A stretch of DNA of 64,000 nucleotides, taken from contig NC_091272.1 of the NCBI RefSeq assembly GCF_042100115.1, positions 4,154,001 to 4,218,000 on the forward strand, read 5' to 3'. Positions 14,235 to 41,758 of the stretch are shown here, one piece after another. The position numbers were made by a program, and so were the translations under genes. This stretch comes from Alternaria dauci (lineage: Eukaryota; Ascomycota; Dothideomycetes; Pleosporales; Pleosporaceae). Position 1 is the stretch's first letter; each line of letters begins with the position of its first letter. Under the pieces are notes generated by a model. That model ran no database searches. It was given only the letters and a program-made list of their open reading frames with translations, and was not told the origin of the DNA.

Positions 14235-16266
14235 ATGTCAGATCACACCGAGACAAGAGCTGGAGGCACATCCCATCAATGTCCCACGTGCAGCAAATTC
14301 TTTTCGAGTAATAGTCACTTGCGGCGACACGAAGCCAGCCGTAGGTTCAGTATCATGGAGTCAGCCATCTGATGGCTAACAGCAGTGAGATACGCGCAGT
14401 CGGTCAAACACTTGCGCCTTTTGTAACCGTGCCTTCATCCGTCAGTACGTCTCTCGTGTAGCATTATTAGCCCCCAGCAGACTAACGTCACCCCCTGCAT
14501 AGTGATGTCCTGAGAAGGCATTCAAAGTCGTGTCAACAAAGAGGAGAACATGATGCAATAGCTTCAGCTAGACCAGGACGACCACCTCGGTCTCGAAAGA
14601 CTGATGGTCAGGCGGAGATGTCAGGGCTCTTCGCTTCCGGTATCCACACGAGTAACACTAATCTTCACACCACGATGAGGGCAGAAGACGCGCAGACGCT
14701 CTTTCCCTATCCGATCACATTCCTATATCGTTATACGGACCCTCGCCGCGATTCAATTCTCAATGCCTTCGCTGATGAACGAACACTTGCGCAACCTACC
14801 AACAACGAAATAATCTCCAATGCAAGCAATCAAGTATTCGAGGGGGACATGGCACTTTTCGGCATCTTCTCAGACCTCTTCATGGACACGAGCGCAGATA
14901 TTTGTGCTTCGACGTCAATAGCGCCAGGGAGATCTCAGCCAATACCCATTTTTCAGTCCAGGGTTGATGAGCTTTGTTCTAAGCTCTTTTCGTACAGTAA
15001 GTCTCGTCGGACGGCTGTCCCCGATCGTGATGATACATTTCCAGTAAACGCTGCGCAAGCGGTTTTCACTGCAGAAAACTTCGAGGCATGTGCGTGGGCT
15101 TACTTTACGGTCTTCCATCCCCAACAGCCTCTTCTACATTGGCCAACGTTTGACATGCATAATGTCTCGCTATCTTTGTTGCTTGCCGTCGTATTTGGAG
15201 GATCGGTTCACTGTTCTCCAACAGACGGCGCATTATCCTGTCGTGCCTTCTTTGATCTAGGCGAAGAGTTCATATTCGAGCAATTGCGCCATGTCGTGCT
15301 AGCGAGACATAATTTGCATAGCGATCCTCGCGCATTGGAGCACGTGCAAGCCGGTTTGCTCATCGTGGCTTTACAGAGTAGCTTCAATAGTGAAGCAGTT
15401 CGGCGAAGGGTTCGGGTCTCAAGGCACCCCGAGCTGGCCGTTGCCATACGATCTCTCAAGTTGCTTGATCCAATGAGTGATACGAGCCCTCACAACGAGG
15501 TACCAAGATGGAATGACTTCATCGCAGAAGAGTCTAGAGTGAGGTAAATCAGCCGCCAGTCTATCCGCAAAACTCCAAGTTAATTGCAGCACTAACCATC
15601 CTAGGATCGTACATTTCATGTGCGTCATGGATTACATGAATGCCTTCTTCTTCAACCTGCTGCCAAATCTGGCTATAGGAGAAATTCACAAACGGCTTCC
15701 GTGCAACGATGCGCTTTATGACGCTTGGACGCCAGAAGAATACGAACAATTGTGCATTGAATCGTCGCGCCCAACGAAACAGATACCCAGTATCAAGCAG
15801 CTGATTGCTTTGTTAATGAGCGAGAACTGGCTGGATGAGCAGAGAAATCCGGTCCTCAACATACTCGAGCTCAGGCACCTCATGATCTGCATATTTGGTA
15901 TGTCATGTCATCTGTTCTCATTTCCCGCACAATGAGCATAGGCTAACGCAAATGGTAGCACTGCATTCAATCATCTTTGTATCGCGAGCTGCGCTTCTCA
16001 CACAGTCGTCACACAATGACCTACTTCGCGCAACGAAGCGTTGGAAAGACCTTTGGGATACTCTGCGCGCAAAACGTGAGGCGGAGCATAAGAAGTCGTT
16101 GGGTTTCGTCAGACATGGTTTGGAAATGTGGTGGGTCGCATGTAAAGTCCTTGAGCTAGCACACGCTGGTGACTTGCAGAGTCGCTACATGGCAGTTAGC
16201 CCCACGGACTCGCTCGTGGATTTGCATGGTTTTCTCAAACAGTACGGGAACTGTGTAGACGATTGA
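14235..16266 (+). CDS. C2H2 zinc-finger / fungal_trans-domain transcription factor
   Basis: Predicted 600 aa from five exons: 14235-14340, 14390-14444, 14503-15543, 15605-15897, 15959-16266. Finger 1 has C16, C19, H32 and H36; the last ligand is encoded across the first splice junction, which selects the acceptor at 14389. Finger 2 is CCHC type with C44, C47, H60 and C64. A basic linker (RPGRPPRSRK) follows. The middle of the protein (for example ACAWAYFTVFHPQQPLLHWP) is the fungal-specific transcription factor domain found after Zn2Cys6 or C2H2 DNA-binding regions. It should act in the nucleus as a sequence-specific regulator. It shares a short divergent promoter with the PSST-like gene, so it may regulate that gene and itself. 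The target pathway is unknown. Confidence 0.87.
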
Positions 16267-27300: not shown

Positions 27301-30300
27301 AACACAGGGCAGTGAGCCATTGTCAAACTCTCTTCGGCAAAGCATGTTTCCAATTTCTCGTCGGCCGTTCTTGATGACTCGCGGAAGTGTATTCGGTGCA
27401 GTGATCATCACACAATACACCCGAAGGTGATGTTCCTGGTACAATACCTCCATACATCGCTCAGAAAGAGAGTCCAAGAAAGGAATGTCAAGCTGTTGAG
27501 GTGGCCCGCCTGGATTTGTGGGAGCAGTGGATGCGGCTTGTGTCTCGATAAGGATGATTGGTAAGTATTCGCCGTTGACGTAGGAATCGAAAGACGAGCT
27601 ACGCAATGTTAGATCAATCACCTCGAAACTAAATGGCACTTACCAGTCGTAGATCTTTGGAACAGCCTTCATAATACTGGTAACAAGATGCTGCACGAAG
27701 AAATACCTATGTTCGGCTTCCAGCTGGCCATGTTCTACCCATTCGACGCGCTGCCTAATCCGGTCCTCGTATAGGCCCAATACGAAAATTTTGCCTTCTA
27801 CCACGCATCCCAGCAGTCCAGTACGCAGAAACTCGAGTTCGAGCAGTTGCGGGGTTGGGCTGCCTTCAACAAAACGATATGGCCGAGCGTGGAAGATGGT
27901 CTCAGTGTGCTTCTGCAGCTGCCAAAAACCTCCGGACAATGATGGCGAATCTACCCAAATCTCTCCTATCGAGTAGGGTGAACACAAAAGGTTAGTCTCG
28001 GGATCTACGATGGCCAGCGTCGCGTCTGGTATTGGGTAGCCAAAAGCACCGACTCTCATAGTGCCGGGTTCGTTGACACGCTTGCTCACTTCTTCTCCTA
28101 TGGCCAAAACAACAACTTCGTTCAGCTTCAGTGCTTCCTTGTCTAGCAGGATTTCGGTCAGCTCGGTTGGACTCTTCTTCTTCTTTGCCTTGGTGTTATT
28201 CGTGGTGCCACCTCCGATGAGACTTGAGTAACCGTTGGCTGCCGCGCCCTTGTCCTCAGTCTCATCTTCACCATCCGATTCCTCTGGTGCTATGCTCAGC
28301 GGACATCCCATACGTTCTTCACCACCCAACCAATCGCGTACTGAAATTATCATGCCGCCGTGCTCGGGCAAGCAAAGCATAGGTGCAATGAGCTCTCGTG
28401 CTCTGGGATTCCTCAGAGGTCTGAAGTAACGGTCGCCAAGAATCTCATGAAATTCGCAGTCGACAGTGAGTGTGTCAATCAGGCAGATCTTGACCGAGCC
28501 AAAGTTGGGTTCGGTGTTCTTCTTGAAGTTGCGTGTAGCCATGGGGTCCTGCTGATAGTTGTAGGCTGCGCGTTTGAGGCCCGGATAGTCAGCGATTAGG
28601 ATGTTGGACTTGTATTTGGTGATGAGGTGTGCATATAGACCTGGCGTCTCCATTGTCGGTGTCTCGAGCCAAACTGTAGTGTGACCACCGTAGACAGCAA
28701 ACAGGACACTGAGGATGAGACCAGCGCTTTCGCGTGGGTCGAGGTAAGAAAGAATGACTTCAGTCGGCGTTCTGCTCTGCACTGGTGCGACGAATTTGCC
28801 GGATGAATCTCGAAGATTGCCATTGAAAGTATCCTGACTTTGGTGGTTGGCGGGTATTGTGCTGATCATGGCGCTGATGCAAGCCATCTGGTGCATGATG
28901 GTGCGGTGGCTCAGTACGACACCACGCAAGTCGCCGGTGGGGGCGCGCGAGAACTCGATGTATGCTACTTCGGGGACTTGCAAGGCCGGCGTGTCGTCAT
29001 GCTTCTTGGGGTGGTAACTTCCAAACTCGTTTGTTTTCCACCACTCGACTCCGCTCGGCCACTTGAGACGGTTCTGGCTGATGTCACGATGGAAGGCCTT
29101 GAGGTTGTTGTCCGTGGTCAGTGCGAGATGTGCCTGAGTTGTGGTCAAGAGGAGGATGAGTTTCTGATAGTCATCGACGCTATTGATGGGTACCGCTACA
29201 ACGCCTGCGATGAAGCATCCCATCAAAGCCACGACGAACTCGATAATCTCCGTGTCTCTGTACACGAGCGCTACGCGATCGCCACGATACAGGTTGCTTT
29301 TGTCCCTAATGACTTTGGCTACCTTTTCGGCGCGACTGGCCACTTTCTCCCAAGTGATGGAAGCCGTTTCCTTGCCCTTTGCATCCAAGACCCAGAAGGC
29401 AGTGGTCCTCGGCTGTGTGCGGGCGCGATAGCGCAGTACAGCGCCGATGTTGTCGAACTTTGACATTTTGATGTTGTGGTTGTGAGGGTCGTAGACGTCG
29501 AATGGCAAGTCTCGAGGTTCCAGTGGCATCATCGTGTCTGCAGCGCCAATGGGGAGATCGCTCGGGTTCATCATGGGCGGCGGTATCGCCGCGGTTGGCG
29601 AGAAGGCGTCGCCTGTGGAGTAGCGGTTCGGTCCGCCGTACGAGTCGCGCTGGTCCTGCATCTGCTGGCCCGTAAAGTCGGAGAAATAGCCCTGATTCAC
29701 GTCCAGCATCGTGCTCCTCCTGCTAGCCTCGCCCGGTGAGCCATATCCGTTCTCGAAGCCTTGCTGGGTGTCCGGGTTGAAGGCATAGTTGCCCATCATG
29801 GTCGGCTCGCGCGAGTAGGTGTACTCGGGCGTCTGCGGGCGCGGGATGAAGGTCTCACTCCCTTGGGATAGCTGGGAAGCGTTGCGCTGCAGTGACGTGG
29901 TGCGTAGGCCGAGCTGCTTCTCTTGGAAACGGCCTACCTGGCTGGGCGGGTATGCCATGTACTGGGAATTGCCGGCGGTGCTCGTCGAGGAGCTGGCGTA
30001 GTGCCCCATGGACGAGCCCATGGTGCCCGGGGCGGAGCTGTCATGGTACGAGTCGGGGCGTGGGAGTTGGATATGGGGCGGGTGGAGCGGGTTGGGCGCA
30101 GAGAGGGCGGCGAGGGATGCGCTGCGGGAACCCGAGGCCTCGCTGTGGGTGAGGCTCTGCTGGCGGACGTCGTTTTGCAATTGCGCCGCGAATTCAGGGC
30201 CCAGATACTGTGACAGCAGAACCGTCTTGCGTTTCTCGTAACTGCGACTGGTTAGTGCACGTGGGGACGGATGCGAATGCGACAACGACAGCGACGGCGA

Positions 30301-32747: not shown

Positions 32748-33745
32748 ATGGATTCCACTCCCGTCAACCCAAACTCCATGCCTGCAGCAACCAGTGGCTC
32801 TCGCTCCAAACTTCTCTCAACAGGTCTCAAGGACTTTCTCAGCAAACCCGCCCTCAAGCATCCACAAAAAGCATTTACCGTACAACTCTGGAACGCGGAA
32901 CAAAAGGCCAACCCTACTGGCAATAACCCACCTCCACGACTAGTAGCCGGACAGCAAAGAGCAGACATGTCGACTTCAGCCAGTGGACAGGCGACGGGAG
33001 ATATCGTGAGCAACGCAAACTCAGGATTCCCAAAGACAAGCGATGCGCCGGGTGAGCAGTTTGAGCCCAGGCAAACAGCCACGAGTGAAGAATATGAGCC
33101 AGACCCGAGCAAGAGCATCAAGCTGAGCCCTCAGCGGCAAGCATTAGTTGATGATGTATGCACACATCCCTCATGTCGTCACGCTCAACTAGAGGACAGA
33201 GCTAATAACTTCCGCAGATCATCGCCCTCTACTCCTGCCAGCCCACTGTCCAACGCGTAAAGCGTTACACACCAGACTGCGTCTACGACGACCAGTTTGT
33301 CTACGCAAACGACCGCTACAAAATGGCCGGCCAATGGTTCGCCCTGCCCAAACTCTTCAATGCTTCAGTCAACGAATCCTACCAAGTAATCCGTTCCGAC
33401 GACGAAGTCATCCAGTTCAAAAATAAGCAATCCTGGACGTTCCGTCTCATTCCCAAGACTGCTACCATCACCGGATTGGTATCGCTTAGTCTGGATCCCG
33501 CGACCAGGGACAGCGAGTTTATGCAAATCAAGTATCACAAAGACCAGGCGAATGACAAGGATTACAGCCATAAAGGAGTAGGGTTTAGCTTCAAGAAGTG
33601 GCAGGCAGACAATGTAGTCAAGCACATGGACGCGCCAGAGTTGAAGGAATTCGAGCAAGACAAGGGGGCCAGCAAGGAACATGTTCGGACATATGCAAGT
33701 GGAAAGGAAGAAGGAGATGCACCAAAGAAGGATTTTACAAACTAG
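32748..33745 (+). CDS. Conserved fungal protein with NTF2/SnoaL-like domain
   Basis: Predicted 311 aa from two exons, 32748-33155 and 33218-33745, across a 62-bp GT-AG intron; the joined frame reads ALVDD-IIALYSCQPT. The first 130 residues are polar and probably disordered. From about residue 135 an alpha+beta region (IIALYSCQPTVQRVKRYTP, CVYDDQFVYANDRYKMAGQW, YQVIRSDDEVIQFKNKQSW) resembles NTF2/SnoaL-like cone folds. The family is widespread in filamentous fungi without an assigned reaction. The C terminus is Lys/Glu-rich. No signal peptide is visible. The gene is well supported; the function is unknown. Confidence 0.82.
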
Positions 33746-33829: not shown

Positions 33830-33958
33830 GGTCGCTTAGCTCAGTTGGTTAGAGCGTGGTGCTAATAACGCCAAGGTCGAGGGTAAGCAATTGTCCTGTA
33901 CAGACTGCACGAGATACATTCTAACATTCGCAATTAGGTTCGACCCCCTTAGTGACCA
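33830..33958 (+). tRNA. tRNA-Ile(AAU) with a 55-bp insertion in the T arm
   Basis: The acceptor stem pairs GGTCGCT (33830-33836) with AGTGACC (33951-33957); the discriminator is A. The D stem is GCTC/GAGC with a TAGCTCAGTTGG A-box. The anticodon arm is TGGTG-CTAATAA-CGCCA (33857-33873), anticodon AAT, so isoleucine. The variable loop is AGGTC. The T stem starts GAGG (33879-33882), is broken by 33883-33937, and resumes with G, loop TTCGACC and CCCTT. Without the insert the gene is a standard 74-nt tRNA. There is no intron at the usual position after the anticodon. The B-box reads through intact because the insert ends in G (AGGTTCGACC). A T8 run follows at 33975. Confidence 0.88.
33883..33937 (+). 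other. Spliceosomal-like intron inside the tRNA-Ile T arm
   Basis: The 55-bp insert begins GTAAGC, contains CTAAC (33921-33925) 12 nt before its end and ends TTAG. These are the donor, branch-point and acceptor features of the short spliceosomal introns elsewhere in this window. It lies between positions 52 and 53 of the T stem, not at the bulge-helix-bulge or 37/38 site cut by tRNA endonuclease. Removal by splicing is inferred. Confidence 0.6.
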
Positions 33959-33974: not shown

Positions 33975-33982
33975 TTTTTTTT
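33975..33982 (+). terminator. RNA polymerase III T-run terminator of tRNA-Ile
   Basis: Eight consecutive T residues begin 17 nt after the tRNA discriminator base, the usual pol III stop signal. Confidence 0.75.
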
Positions 33983-34727
33983 CACTTCGAATGTGTGAAG
34001 GTGACTGTTTTTCCCAAGTGACATGTTTTTTTCTCTCCCTTAGTGGCAAGACTCTACCTTCCTCCGGTCGCGCGTTCGACCCTCGCTGTGATCACTACAC
34101 TTCTTTTGCTCTGATGGATGTTTTTAAGTGAGAATTGTGGAAGGAAATGGTAAATGGGTGTTTGTGCATTCGATATGGATACTTTGCTCGTATCAGTACA
34201 GGATGACTTATGCACAACAGTCTGTCATCTCATAACGTGCCAGCACTACAGAACATTATGTTGTACAAGTCACTCACTCAAGTATATCCGCTCAGAAGCT
34301 GGTGGACCACATTATAGATTACTATAACTGCAAGAGTTATCTAGACTACTCAAGCAAAAGGCCACCTTCATTACTTCGTCACTCGCATTACCCCAAACCA
34401 TACCGCGCAGTGCGTATCGCAGGACACTGTAATAAGAGCTGGCCGATACGGCGCAGTGAAAACGCCCATGGCCAGGATATGCAACTTATTCGCCGCATAC
34501 GGGCCACGCCACCTAAAAGAAGAGAAGGAGGCCGTTGAAGATCACGGAGGGATGCCGAAGTGTTCAATCCGTCCATCTTCGAGTATCCGTGTCGTGTCGT
34601 TGTATAGGGGATTAAAAAGGGTGTTAGGTAAAGTCTTGCAATAAAAGAGTGTAAGAAAGGCGAAAAGCGTGCTTTTGTACGTCTGGTACTAGGAAGTTGG
34701 ATGCTGGGGTTGATAATGATCAACTGC
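33983..34727. other. Intergenic with tRNA-like relic
   Basis: No protein gene is seen. Close to the tRNA are a T-rich stretch and a second T-arm-like fragment at 34066-34094. The right part is the 3' flank of the wall-protein gene. Confidence 0.5.
34066..34094 (+). pseudogene. tRNA 3'-half relic (T arm plus acceptor strand)
   Basis: GGTCGCGCGTTCGACCC continues through CTCGCTGTGATCA and aligns position by position with the 3' half of the upstream tRNA-Ile (GGTCGAGGGTTCGACCC through CCTTAGTGACCA). The T stem has one mismatch and no matching 5' half was found nearby. Most likely a partial, degenerate duplicate. Confidence 0.4.
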
Positions 34728-40383: not shown

Positions 40384-41472
40384 TTAACCCATAAGCTGCA
40401 GCTGATCAGTTGGCGGCCATCTGGTCTGCGCAAAGCTCAAACATCGCTTGATGCTCTGCAGATACTTCCTTGTCATCTCGTCACTCATGATATGCGCCGC
40501 ATTTTTGTCGCTTTCATGGAGCTTCTCTCGCGCACTTCTCTCGTGAATGCCCACCATGGTGACACCGATGGGCCATGCCGCCTTGCCAATACTGAGACGT
40601 AGATATCCATCGTTGGCGTCGACGTATCTTCGCTCCTGGGCAGCGTGCACAATCTCTACAACGGGCTCAACGATGCTGTCTGGAAGATCGAACTTTTCCA
40701 GCTTCTTAAACAGGGGTCGCATGTTCTCACGCGCTTGTACCATGGCTGCATAGGCCTGCTTGCCTTGATAACTCTCTTTGACTTCGGGATCTCGGCGTAG
40801 GAGCGTGAGGTCCCATTCTTTCAGCACCATGGTAAAGTAGCTCGCTAGTTGCCTGAAGAGGAATTCACGGCCTTGCTTGTCCTTGGGAACCTGGGGATTG
40901 ACCTTCATGTCCTTCTCGGGTACTAGTTGTAGTGTTGTGGGTATCGGACCGTCCGTCATGATGGCTGCCAGGCTGTCTGCGCCTACGCGCTTCTTGTACC
41001 GCTTTAGACGTTGTTTGTGTGTCTCGCCGAATAGCCGCGCTGGTTCCTCGAGGGCTCTCAGCTTCGCGACCAGCTCTTCGTCTTTGATGTCTTCCTCTTC
41101 GGGAACTGGTGTACCGTCTCCTTCGCCTTCCTTCTTCTTGGGCGGAAGATCAGGAAGTCCCAGTCGCCTTCGCCGCTGCCTTTCTTCCGCCTCTTCCTCT
41201 TCTTCTCTTATGCGTCTTGACTCTTCGGCCATGCGCATTCGCTTTTCCCGGCGCTCAGCTTCTCTTTCGGCCTCGTCCTCTTCAGCTTTGCGCTTCTTCT
41301 CTAGCCGTTCTCGGCGCGCCTTTTCCGCAGCTTCTTGCTCGGCGATGTATGCGGCCTGCCGTTGGGCTTCGATCTCGCTGCGCTTAAGGTACTTTTTCTC
41401 GTTTGACTCGGCGGGCGGCGCTGTGTCTTTGCCCTTCTTGATGTGAGCGGACATCAACTTTGCAAAGTCCAT
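40384..41472 (-). CDS. PRP18: Pre-mRNA-splicing factor 18
   Basis: Single-exon 362 aa. The start MDFAKLMSAHIKKGK at 41472 is the family-typical N terminus; an in-frame ATG 78 bp upstream would add 26 unrelated residues and is less likely. Residues 30-110 form a charged Arg/Glu/Lys coiled coil. A PRP4-like short motif (FGETHKQRLKRYKK) precedes the C-terminal Prp18 helical domain (about 200-345), recognisable by LRRDPEVKESYQGKQAYAA, CxxR-type PLFKKLEKFDLPD, NDGYLRLSIGKAAWPIGVT and GIHERSAREKL. Prp18 acts with Slu7 in the second catalytic step of nuclear pre-mRNA splicing. Head-to-head with SAP18. Confidence 0.95.
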   Translation of the reverse strand: MDFAKLMSAHIKKGKDTAPPAESNEKKYLKRSEIEAQRQAAYIAEQEAAEKARRERLEKKRKAEEDEAEREAERREKRMRMAEESRRIREEEEEAEERQRRRRLGLPDLPPKKKEGEGDGTPVPEEEDIKDEELVAKLRALEEPARLFGETHKQRLKRYKKRVGADSLAAIMTDGPIPTTLQLVPEKDMKVNPQVPKDKQGREFLFRQLASYFTMVLKEWDLTLLRRDPEVKESYQGKQAYAAMVQARENMRPLFKKLEKFDLPDSIVEPVVEIVHAAQERRYVDANDGYLRLSIGKAAWPIGVTMVGIHERSAREKLHESDKNAAHIMSDEMTRKYLQSIKRCLSFAQTRWPPTDQLQLMG

Positions 41473-41758
41473 GTTTGCGACTGCAATGACCGGTGTCTGA
41501 TATGGGTTGACGTGTCGAGGATGGGTGAGTGATGGTTGCGACACGGGCATTCACCTGGGCTGCAGGGTACTTGCCGAAGAATGGCGCTAGTGGGAGCTCT
41601 CCACGTCGCGCTCCTTCACCTAAACTCTCCAACAAAACCTCCGCATTCCGCGCCTGACGTCACACTGTCGCGAAAGTTCCAGGACATTGTCGCAGTCTTC
41701 CTAAGAATATCCTATCATATCGGCTATTTTGGCTGCCTACGAGGCTGTGTAGCTCGCC
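41473..41758. promoter_or_regulatory. Divergent promoter of PRP18 and SAP18
   Basis: 286 bp between the two start codons. It includes a near-consensus cAMP-type TGACGTCA-like site (CCTGACGTCACAC, about 41655-41667). Shared regulation of the two nuclear genes is inferred from the layout. Confidence 0.45.

Follow-up and report, generated by a model that had tools for sequence, protein, structure and literature searches.

At least seven tRNA genes, of six tRNA kinds, are split by spliceosome-type inserts in this 34.9-Mb, ten-contig Alternaria genome. We consider it very probable that these inserts are spliceosomal (U2-type) introns in nuclear tRNA genes, and that the corresponding pol III pre-tRNAs are spliced by the spliceosome. 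The evidence observed directly comprises the anatomy of the genes, their splice signals, the restored cloverleaf, compensatory changes, and exons that are conserved while their introns diverge.

A tRNA-Ile(AAU) gene interrupted in its T arm

The window, the whole 64,000-nt stretch of DNA analysed here (C1:4154001-4218000), contains a tRNA-Ile(AAU) gene at 33830-33958 on the forward strand. The Rfam family RF00005 matched the full length of this interval (45.2 bits, gathering score 29, E 2.1e-06), with the surplus letters falling into the model's T loop. The surplus corresponds to a 55-nt insert at 33883-33937, located in the T arm between tRNA positions 52 and 53. Without the insert, 74 nt remain and form 21/21 standard stem pairs; ARAGORN called tRNA-Ile(aat) once the 55 nt had been excised and reported 0 tRNAs in the uncut window. 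The sequence-only reading had described a tRNA-Ile(AAU) gene that is split in the T arm, folds correctly only after removal of 55 bp, is interrupted away from the tRNA-endonuclease site, and keeps its B box intact over the 3′ junction. Each of these statements was borne out, the insert lying at 52/53 and the canonical site at 37/38.

As delimited by the Rfam alignment and by comparison with paralogues, the 5′ exon (33830-33882, +) comprises the 5′ strand of the acceptor stem, the D arm, the anticodon arm (AAU), the variable loop and T-stem bases 49-52. It contains an unbroken A box, TAGCTCAGTTGG, at 33837-33848 (+), an internal pol III promoter element. The GT-AG insert (33883-33937, +) opens with the 5′ splice site GTAAGC (33883-33888, +), which was compared with introns of the same genome. 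It carries a branch-site-like CTAAC at 33921-33925 (+), with the intron's last base lying 13 nt beyond the presumed branch A, and closes with the 3′ splice site TAG (33935-33937, +) within an intron end reading TTAG. The 3′ exon (33938-33958, +), delimited by the Rfam alignment and the stem-pair count, supplies T-stem base 53, the T loop TTCGACC, the 3′ strands of the T and acceptor stems, and the discriminator A. The B box, GGTTCGACCCC, at 33937-33947 (+), spans the 3′ junction: the intron's last base serves as the first G of the box. At the predicted joined exon junction, GAGG is followed directly by GTTCGACC. A T8 run at 33975-33982 (+), beginning 16 nt past the gene end, is the likely pol III terminator.

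Split tRNA genes across the genome

A genome search with RF00005, in which 63 of 931 candidates were scored, gave 60 loci among the matches listed; 17 of these lie in a mitochondrial-looking stretch of C3, and three of the other 43 are split, namely the window Ile gene, Arg(CCU) and Thr(UGU). On the RF00005 loci read, ARAGORN found a tRNA in all others and in none of these three. A search for A-box/B-box spacing with room for an insert returned nine places (reversed control, five). Four proved to be split tRNA genes, namely Ile, Arg(CCU) and two Arg(UCG), and the other five matches were judged non-tRNA. A sister A/B-box pattern returned nine places (control, 22), including Lys(CUU); its other eight matches were judged non-tRNA on their first 80 letters only. 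A motif search combining branch site, AG and B box gave 14 places (control, 15), five being split tRNA genes. Ser(CGA) came only through this branch-site search, and the other six genes came through searches without a splice motif. The pattern GGTARNGC..GTWWG..CTAAY gave 32 matches (reversed control, 58), of which three were the Arg genes and the others were judged non-tRNA from the letters listed, and a D-arm pattern gave 33 (control, 11), with the Thr gene alone recognised as a tRNA among the matches listed. In a search for relatives, a 17-letter pattern had 0 matches in genome contigs and three in viral contigs, which we took as chance arising from the size of the collection.

A split-tRNA scan was also conducted, allowing 40-80-nt inserts with any of 17 donor pentamers and an AG end, whose removal must yield a cloverleaf. 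The Ile site was its sole match on both strands of the window, and 10 Mb of Markov-1 sequence (one strand) gave 0 matches; chance origin of the Ile split was rejected on this comparison. Trivial matches on fetched loci, with the junction at the edge of an intact tRNA or inside a mitochondrial tRNA cluster, were discarded by reading. The scan permits one intron and therefore missed the two-intron Arg(UCG), Lys and Ser genes. The searches cover part of the tRNA set, and seven is a lower bound, since Ser(CGA), a two-intron gene, escaped the one-intron scan.

Besides the window gene, the set comprises Arg(CCU) at C5:2292900-2293022 (-), with a 51-nt intron in the T arm at 53/54; Thr(UGU) at C1:4371869-4371992 (+), with a 52-nt intron inside the D stem; two Arg(UCG) copies at C1:2924332-2924467 (+) and C1:4510157-4510293 (-), whose T-arm introns, at 53/54, measure 51 or 52 nt; Lys(CUU) at C5:1096690-1096844 (-), with a 50-nt intron in the T loop at 57/58 and its last base outside the sequence read; and Ser(CGA) at C1:2406974-2407125 (+), with a 50-nt intron in the T arm at 53/54. 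The usual anticodon-loop intron is also present in four of the split genes, the two Arg(UCG) copies, Ser(CGA) and Lys(CUU). ARAGORN recognised all six distinct joined sequences as tRNAs (6/6) and none of the unjoined genes (0/7). After joining, Ile, Arg(CCU), Lys and Arg(UCG) form 21/21 stem pairs and Thr forms 20/21; joined Ser forms 7/7 acceptor and 5/5 T-stem pairs and is called Ser(cga). ARAGORN names joined Arg(UCG) tRNA-Leu(taa), with the anticodon intron at 35, and the name Arg(UCG) used here assumes an intron at 37/38. One split Arg(UCG) copy has, about 300 bp upstream, a further tRNA gene (L080 1083-1171, +) that itself probably contains an anticodon-loop intron.

Copy number and exon conservation

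The seven genes might be disrupted tRNA pseudogenes, in which intron-like insertions broke redundant copies and are never removed; we regard this as improbable, and it is the alternative that survives best. Copy number speaks in its favour. Four uninterrupted Ile(AAU) genes are present (L002-L005; two on C10, the others on C5 and C8), together with uninterrupted Arg(CCU) (L038) and Lys(CUU) (L042-L044) genes. Another Thr(UGU) gene (L091, C2:292130-292330, -) has an anticodon-loop intron and no D-arm insert. BLAST had given no second Thr(UGU) copy, and the idea of a single-copy gene was dropped when a pattern search, with at least 149 matches against 142 in its reversed control, revealed L091. 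With such copies at hand, most of the split genes could be silent, and the window Ile(AAU) copy, given its four uninterrupted paralogues, is probably redundant and dispensable. A review likewise presumes most non-canonical insertions in tRNA genes of eukaryotes to be pseudogenes (PMC4090602). Such redundancy may not extend to every kind: BLAST of the genome gave no uninterrupted Arg(UCG), and both copies found are split, the BLAST copy counts, that of Arg(UCG) included, being lower bounds. The strongest candidates for necessity are Arg(UCG) and perhaps Ser(CGA).

The exons themselves argue against decay, as do inserts that end at splice signals. The window Ile gene differs from the intact L002 and L003 at 4/74 positions, all in the T stem, and the four differences form two compensatory pairs with one partner on either side of the intron. 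Against L004, and likewise against L005, a fifth difference joins these four. Its 5′ exon is identical to L002, L003 and L004 at 51/53 positions, the differing T-stem bases being 50 and 52, with one additional difference from L005; T-stem bases 50, 52, 62 and 64 thus tell the window gene from its four paralogues. Of 3,000,000 trials that placed four random substitutions in the Ile tRNA, 91 gave two compensatory pairs without the loss of any pair. The sequence-only reading had named several intact tRNA-Ile(AAU) copies as one half of what would make the split gene a disrupted pseudogene, the other half concerning its RNA. The copies were found, but a pseudogene is unlikely nevertheless, because of the two compensatory T-stem changes and because six more tRNA genes are split alike, both detected Arg(UCG) copies among them.

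Compensation also reaches other stems in other genes. Between Arg(CCU) and L038 there are 17 differences, 16 of them in stems, with six two-sided compensatory changes and 21/21 pairs kept; 17 random substitutions kept every pair in 26/500,000 trials. Split Thr differs from L091 at 11 positions, with five two-sided changes, four from pair to pair and one from mismatch to pair. The last of these concerns acceptor pair 4:69, a T-T mismatch in L091 and C-G in the split copy, and 20/21 stem pairs form in the split copy against 19/21 in L091. As far as they were read, the split Lys exons equal those of the three intact Lys(CUU) genes; the anticodon introns differ.

In the two Arg(UCG) genes, 85 nt are identical, made up of the first 65 nt and the 20-nt last exon and covering the exons and the anticodon intron. 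Their T-arm introns differ at 17/52 columns, with GTAWGT, TACTAAC and AG conserved, and their flanks are 32% and 22% identical, about the level of chance. If the exons changed as fast as the intron, the probability of finding 72 exon bases unchanged would be ~4e-13, a naive estimate that ignores gene conversion; to produce this pattern, gene conversion would need to break off at both edges of the intron. Conservation of the 3′ exon beyond the intron makes sense if the intron is removed. Taken together, compensatory changes and identical exons beside diverged introns make the split genes unlike decayed pseudogenes.

The inserts resemble ordinary introns

All seven inserts have GT-AG ends and measure 50-55 nt. 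Their 5′ splice sites are GTAAGT in three genes and GTAAGC, GTAAGA, GTATGT and GTTAGT in one each, close to GTAAGT. A branch-like CTAAY, whose A precedes the last base by 9-13 nt, occurs in 7/7 inserts, although the Ser(CGA) gene was itself found only by that motif; the Arg(CCU) insert has a second CTAAC farther upstream. Among 20 ordinary intron-like sites of the genome, the median length was 53 (47-71) and the median branch distance 11. These sites were picked from 33 rows of a motif pattern whose reversed control gave 11, so some may be chance; incomplete rows, non-YAG ends, the longer of overlapping rows and a tRNA row were dropped.

In the window, four of ten strict intron-like sites, 45-62 nt long, reopen a reading frame when removed: 33156-33217 (+), 15898-15958 (+), and two starting at 27643 (-) and 26171 (-). 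The first of these is an ordinary intron, GTATGC..CTAAT..CAG, in a neighbouring protein-coding gene. The resemblance of GTAAGC, CTAAC and TTAG to the introns of the window's genes, which the sequence-only reading had asserted, thus holds.

Could the inserts instead be non-canonical BHB-type introns, cut by the tRNA splicing endonuclease and spliceosomal in looks only? D-arm and T-arm introns of this type are on record for nucleomorphs, as are comparable non-canonical introns for Cyanidioschyzon (PMC4090602), and a simple BHB score, weak in the six genes tested, came out alike in four canonical controls. We nonetheless find this explanation barely plausible: GT-AG ends and a branch-like site, spaced as in the mRNA introns of the genome, are present in 7/7 genes, and the minimum-energy fold of the Ile precursor, inspected by eye, has no BHB at the junction. 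The insert lengths also exceed the 10-36 nt of the anticodon introns that ARAGORN reports in the nuclear genes read (calls spanning two genes left out). Canonical tRNA introns are a separate matter: the insert positions (52/53, 53/54, 57/58 and the D stem) all avoid their site, 37/38.

A group I or II self-splicing intron was also considered and rejected, the inserts being merely 50-55 nt long and no Rfam intron family appearing among the matches. Group I and II introns have a catalytic core and run to hundreds of nucleotides.

Promoter boxes and terminators

Read by eye, the A and B boxes are unbroken in Ile, the three Arg genes and Ser, the Ser A box being one place off the consensus. Where an intron sits at 52/53 or 53/54, its terminal AG would supply the G at 52 or 53, and the B box would thereby survive in the DNA. 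The Thr intron splits the A box, which its GTAAG partly remakes. The T-loop intron of Lys(CUU) (L093, C5:1096690-1096900, -) splits the B box and contains GTTCGATTC, suggestive of a possible replacement B box, in a gene whose search pattern required such a box. The first run of at least four Ts begins 1-38 nt past the gene end in 6/6 genes read (Lys downstream left out), and TATA-like stretches lie upstream of several split genes (by eye). We find it hardly credible that long pol II transcripts contain the tRNA-like sequences as tRNA-derived exons, own the introns and yield no tRNA: GT-AG introns are typical of such transcripts, but the cloverleaves are complete and carry compensatory changes, and the T runs and TATA-like stretches just described speak against it.

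Relation to known introns

Spliceosomal introns in fungal U6 snRNA genes remain the nearest precedent, as the sequence-only reading had suggested: there, too, a small RNA gene transcribed by pol III carries an mRNA-type intron, according to a 2017 paper (PMC5832005) whose references include Tani and Ohshima 1989 and Canzler 2016. The Alternaria host differs in being a tRNA, with several isoacceptors and several positions affected. That paper singles out U3 and U6 as the only small structured RNAs in which introns are known to be frequent, and fungal U3 snoRNA genes likewise combine a structured RNA, though a different one, with a normal spliceosomal intron (PMC5832005). The two full-length, above-cut-off U6 genes of the present genome (C1) have no intron, so that they offer no in-genome U6 precedent; a further U6 match above the cut-off lies at C1:5437718-5437778. 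A divergent U6-like sequence (L094, C4:1141949-1142058, -) scored 43.9 bits, just under the family cut-off.

Spliceosomal introns in the rDNA of lichen fungi are a second case in which the spliceosome works on RNA from a polymerase other than pol II, there rRNA from pol I, and yeast removes them from pol I rRNA (PMC8527467). Fungal U6 and rDNA introns are therefore precedents for the spliceosome on pol III and pol I transcripts, respectively.

Canonical eukaryotic tRNA introns, removed from 37/38 by endonuclease and ligase, share with the inserts the status of an intervening sequence in a tRNA gene, whereas the inserts differ in position, in length and in their GT-AG and branch signals. The non-canonical tRNA introns of nucleomorphs and Cyanidioschyzon share the D-arm or T-arm position, and nucleomorph tRNA genes with two or three introns have been reported; by contrast, those of Guillardia are 3-24 nt long and those of Cyanidioschyzon rely on BHB motifs (PMC4090602). 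The tRNAscan-SE 2.0 paper limits eukaryotic tRNA genes to one intron (PMC8450103). Searches of an open-access library gave, among the papers listed, no title or abstract reporting spliceosomal introns in tRNA genes. Judged by their sequence, the inserts appear to be spliceosomal introns, and the tRNA host class is apparently unrecorded within the literature searched.

Proposed maturation and its consequences

Pol III transcription, splicing, dependence on the spliceosome and the order of processing are set out here as a prediction from the gene features. Pol III would transcribe the Ile gene from its intact A and B boxes, giving a pre-tRNA in which, as in the other split genes, the T or D arm could not form while unspliced. 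The uncapped precursor would be seen as a short fungal intron, with U1 at GTAAGC, the branch at CTAAC and a TAG end, and nuclear splicing would join the T arm to yield a 74-nt tRNA-Ile(AAU). RNase P and RNase Z depend on a complete T arm and acceptor stem and would be expected to follow the splicing step. The precursors of Arg(UCG), Ser(CGA) and Lys(CUU) would each be processed by two machines, the spliceosome and, once the arm has been joined, the tRNA endonuclease.

More tentatively, it is possible that in the Alternaria lineage the spliceosome has become obligatory for tRNA maturation, with every Arg(UCG) copy and perhaps every Ser(CGA) copy split in this way besides carrying an endonuclease-type intron, so that decoding of particular codons would depend on pre-mRNA splicing capacity, and with introns having spread to places where the pol III boxes stay intact or are restored.

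Introns of tRNAs and of mRNAs are treated as belonging to separate worlds, each with its own enzymes. If the preferred reading is true, the spliceosome can process pol III pre-tRNAs, some tRNAs need two splicing machines, and translation of particular codons is tied to splicing. It would also explain tRNA genes that standard annotation misses, as ARAGORN missed all seven uncut. The split genes put intron gain to a natural test in very short, structured genes, whose base pairing reports on exon function.

Genomic context

The window also encodes an LCAT-like protein of 893 aa, 88% identical to an Alternaria incomplexa protein and 96% identical over 59% of its length to a protein of Alternaria sp. 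MG1. On C3, a stretch near the contig end (C3:3344209-3399162, L060-L063) has 23-38% GC and dense organelle-type tRNAs; a mitochondrial genome seems to have been joined to this chromosome contig. Just downstream of the split Ile gene, at 34040-34097 (+), lies a tRNA-like 3′ remnant, TTAGTGGCAAGACTCTACC...GTTCGACCCTCGCTGTGATCAC, which drew no Rfam call, had no further copy in a DNA search of the genome, and gave no cloverleaf on any GT-AG excision in a scan. The window further encodes, at 40384-41550 (-), a Prp18-like splicing factor (Pfam Prp18 and PRP4).
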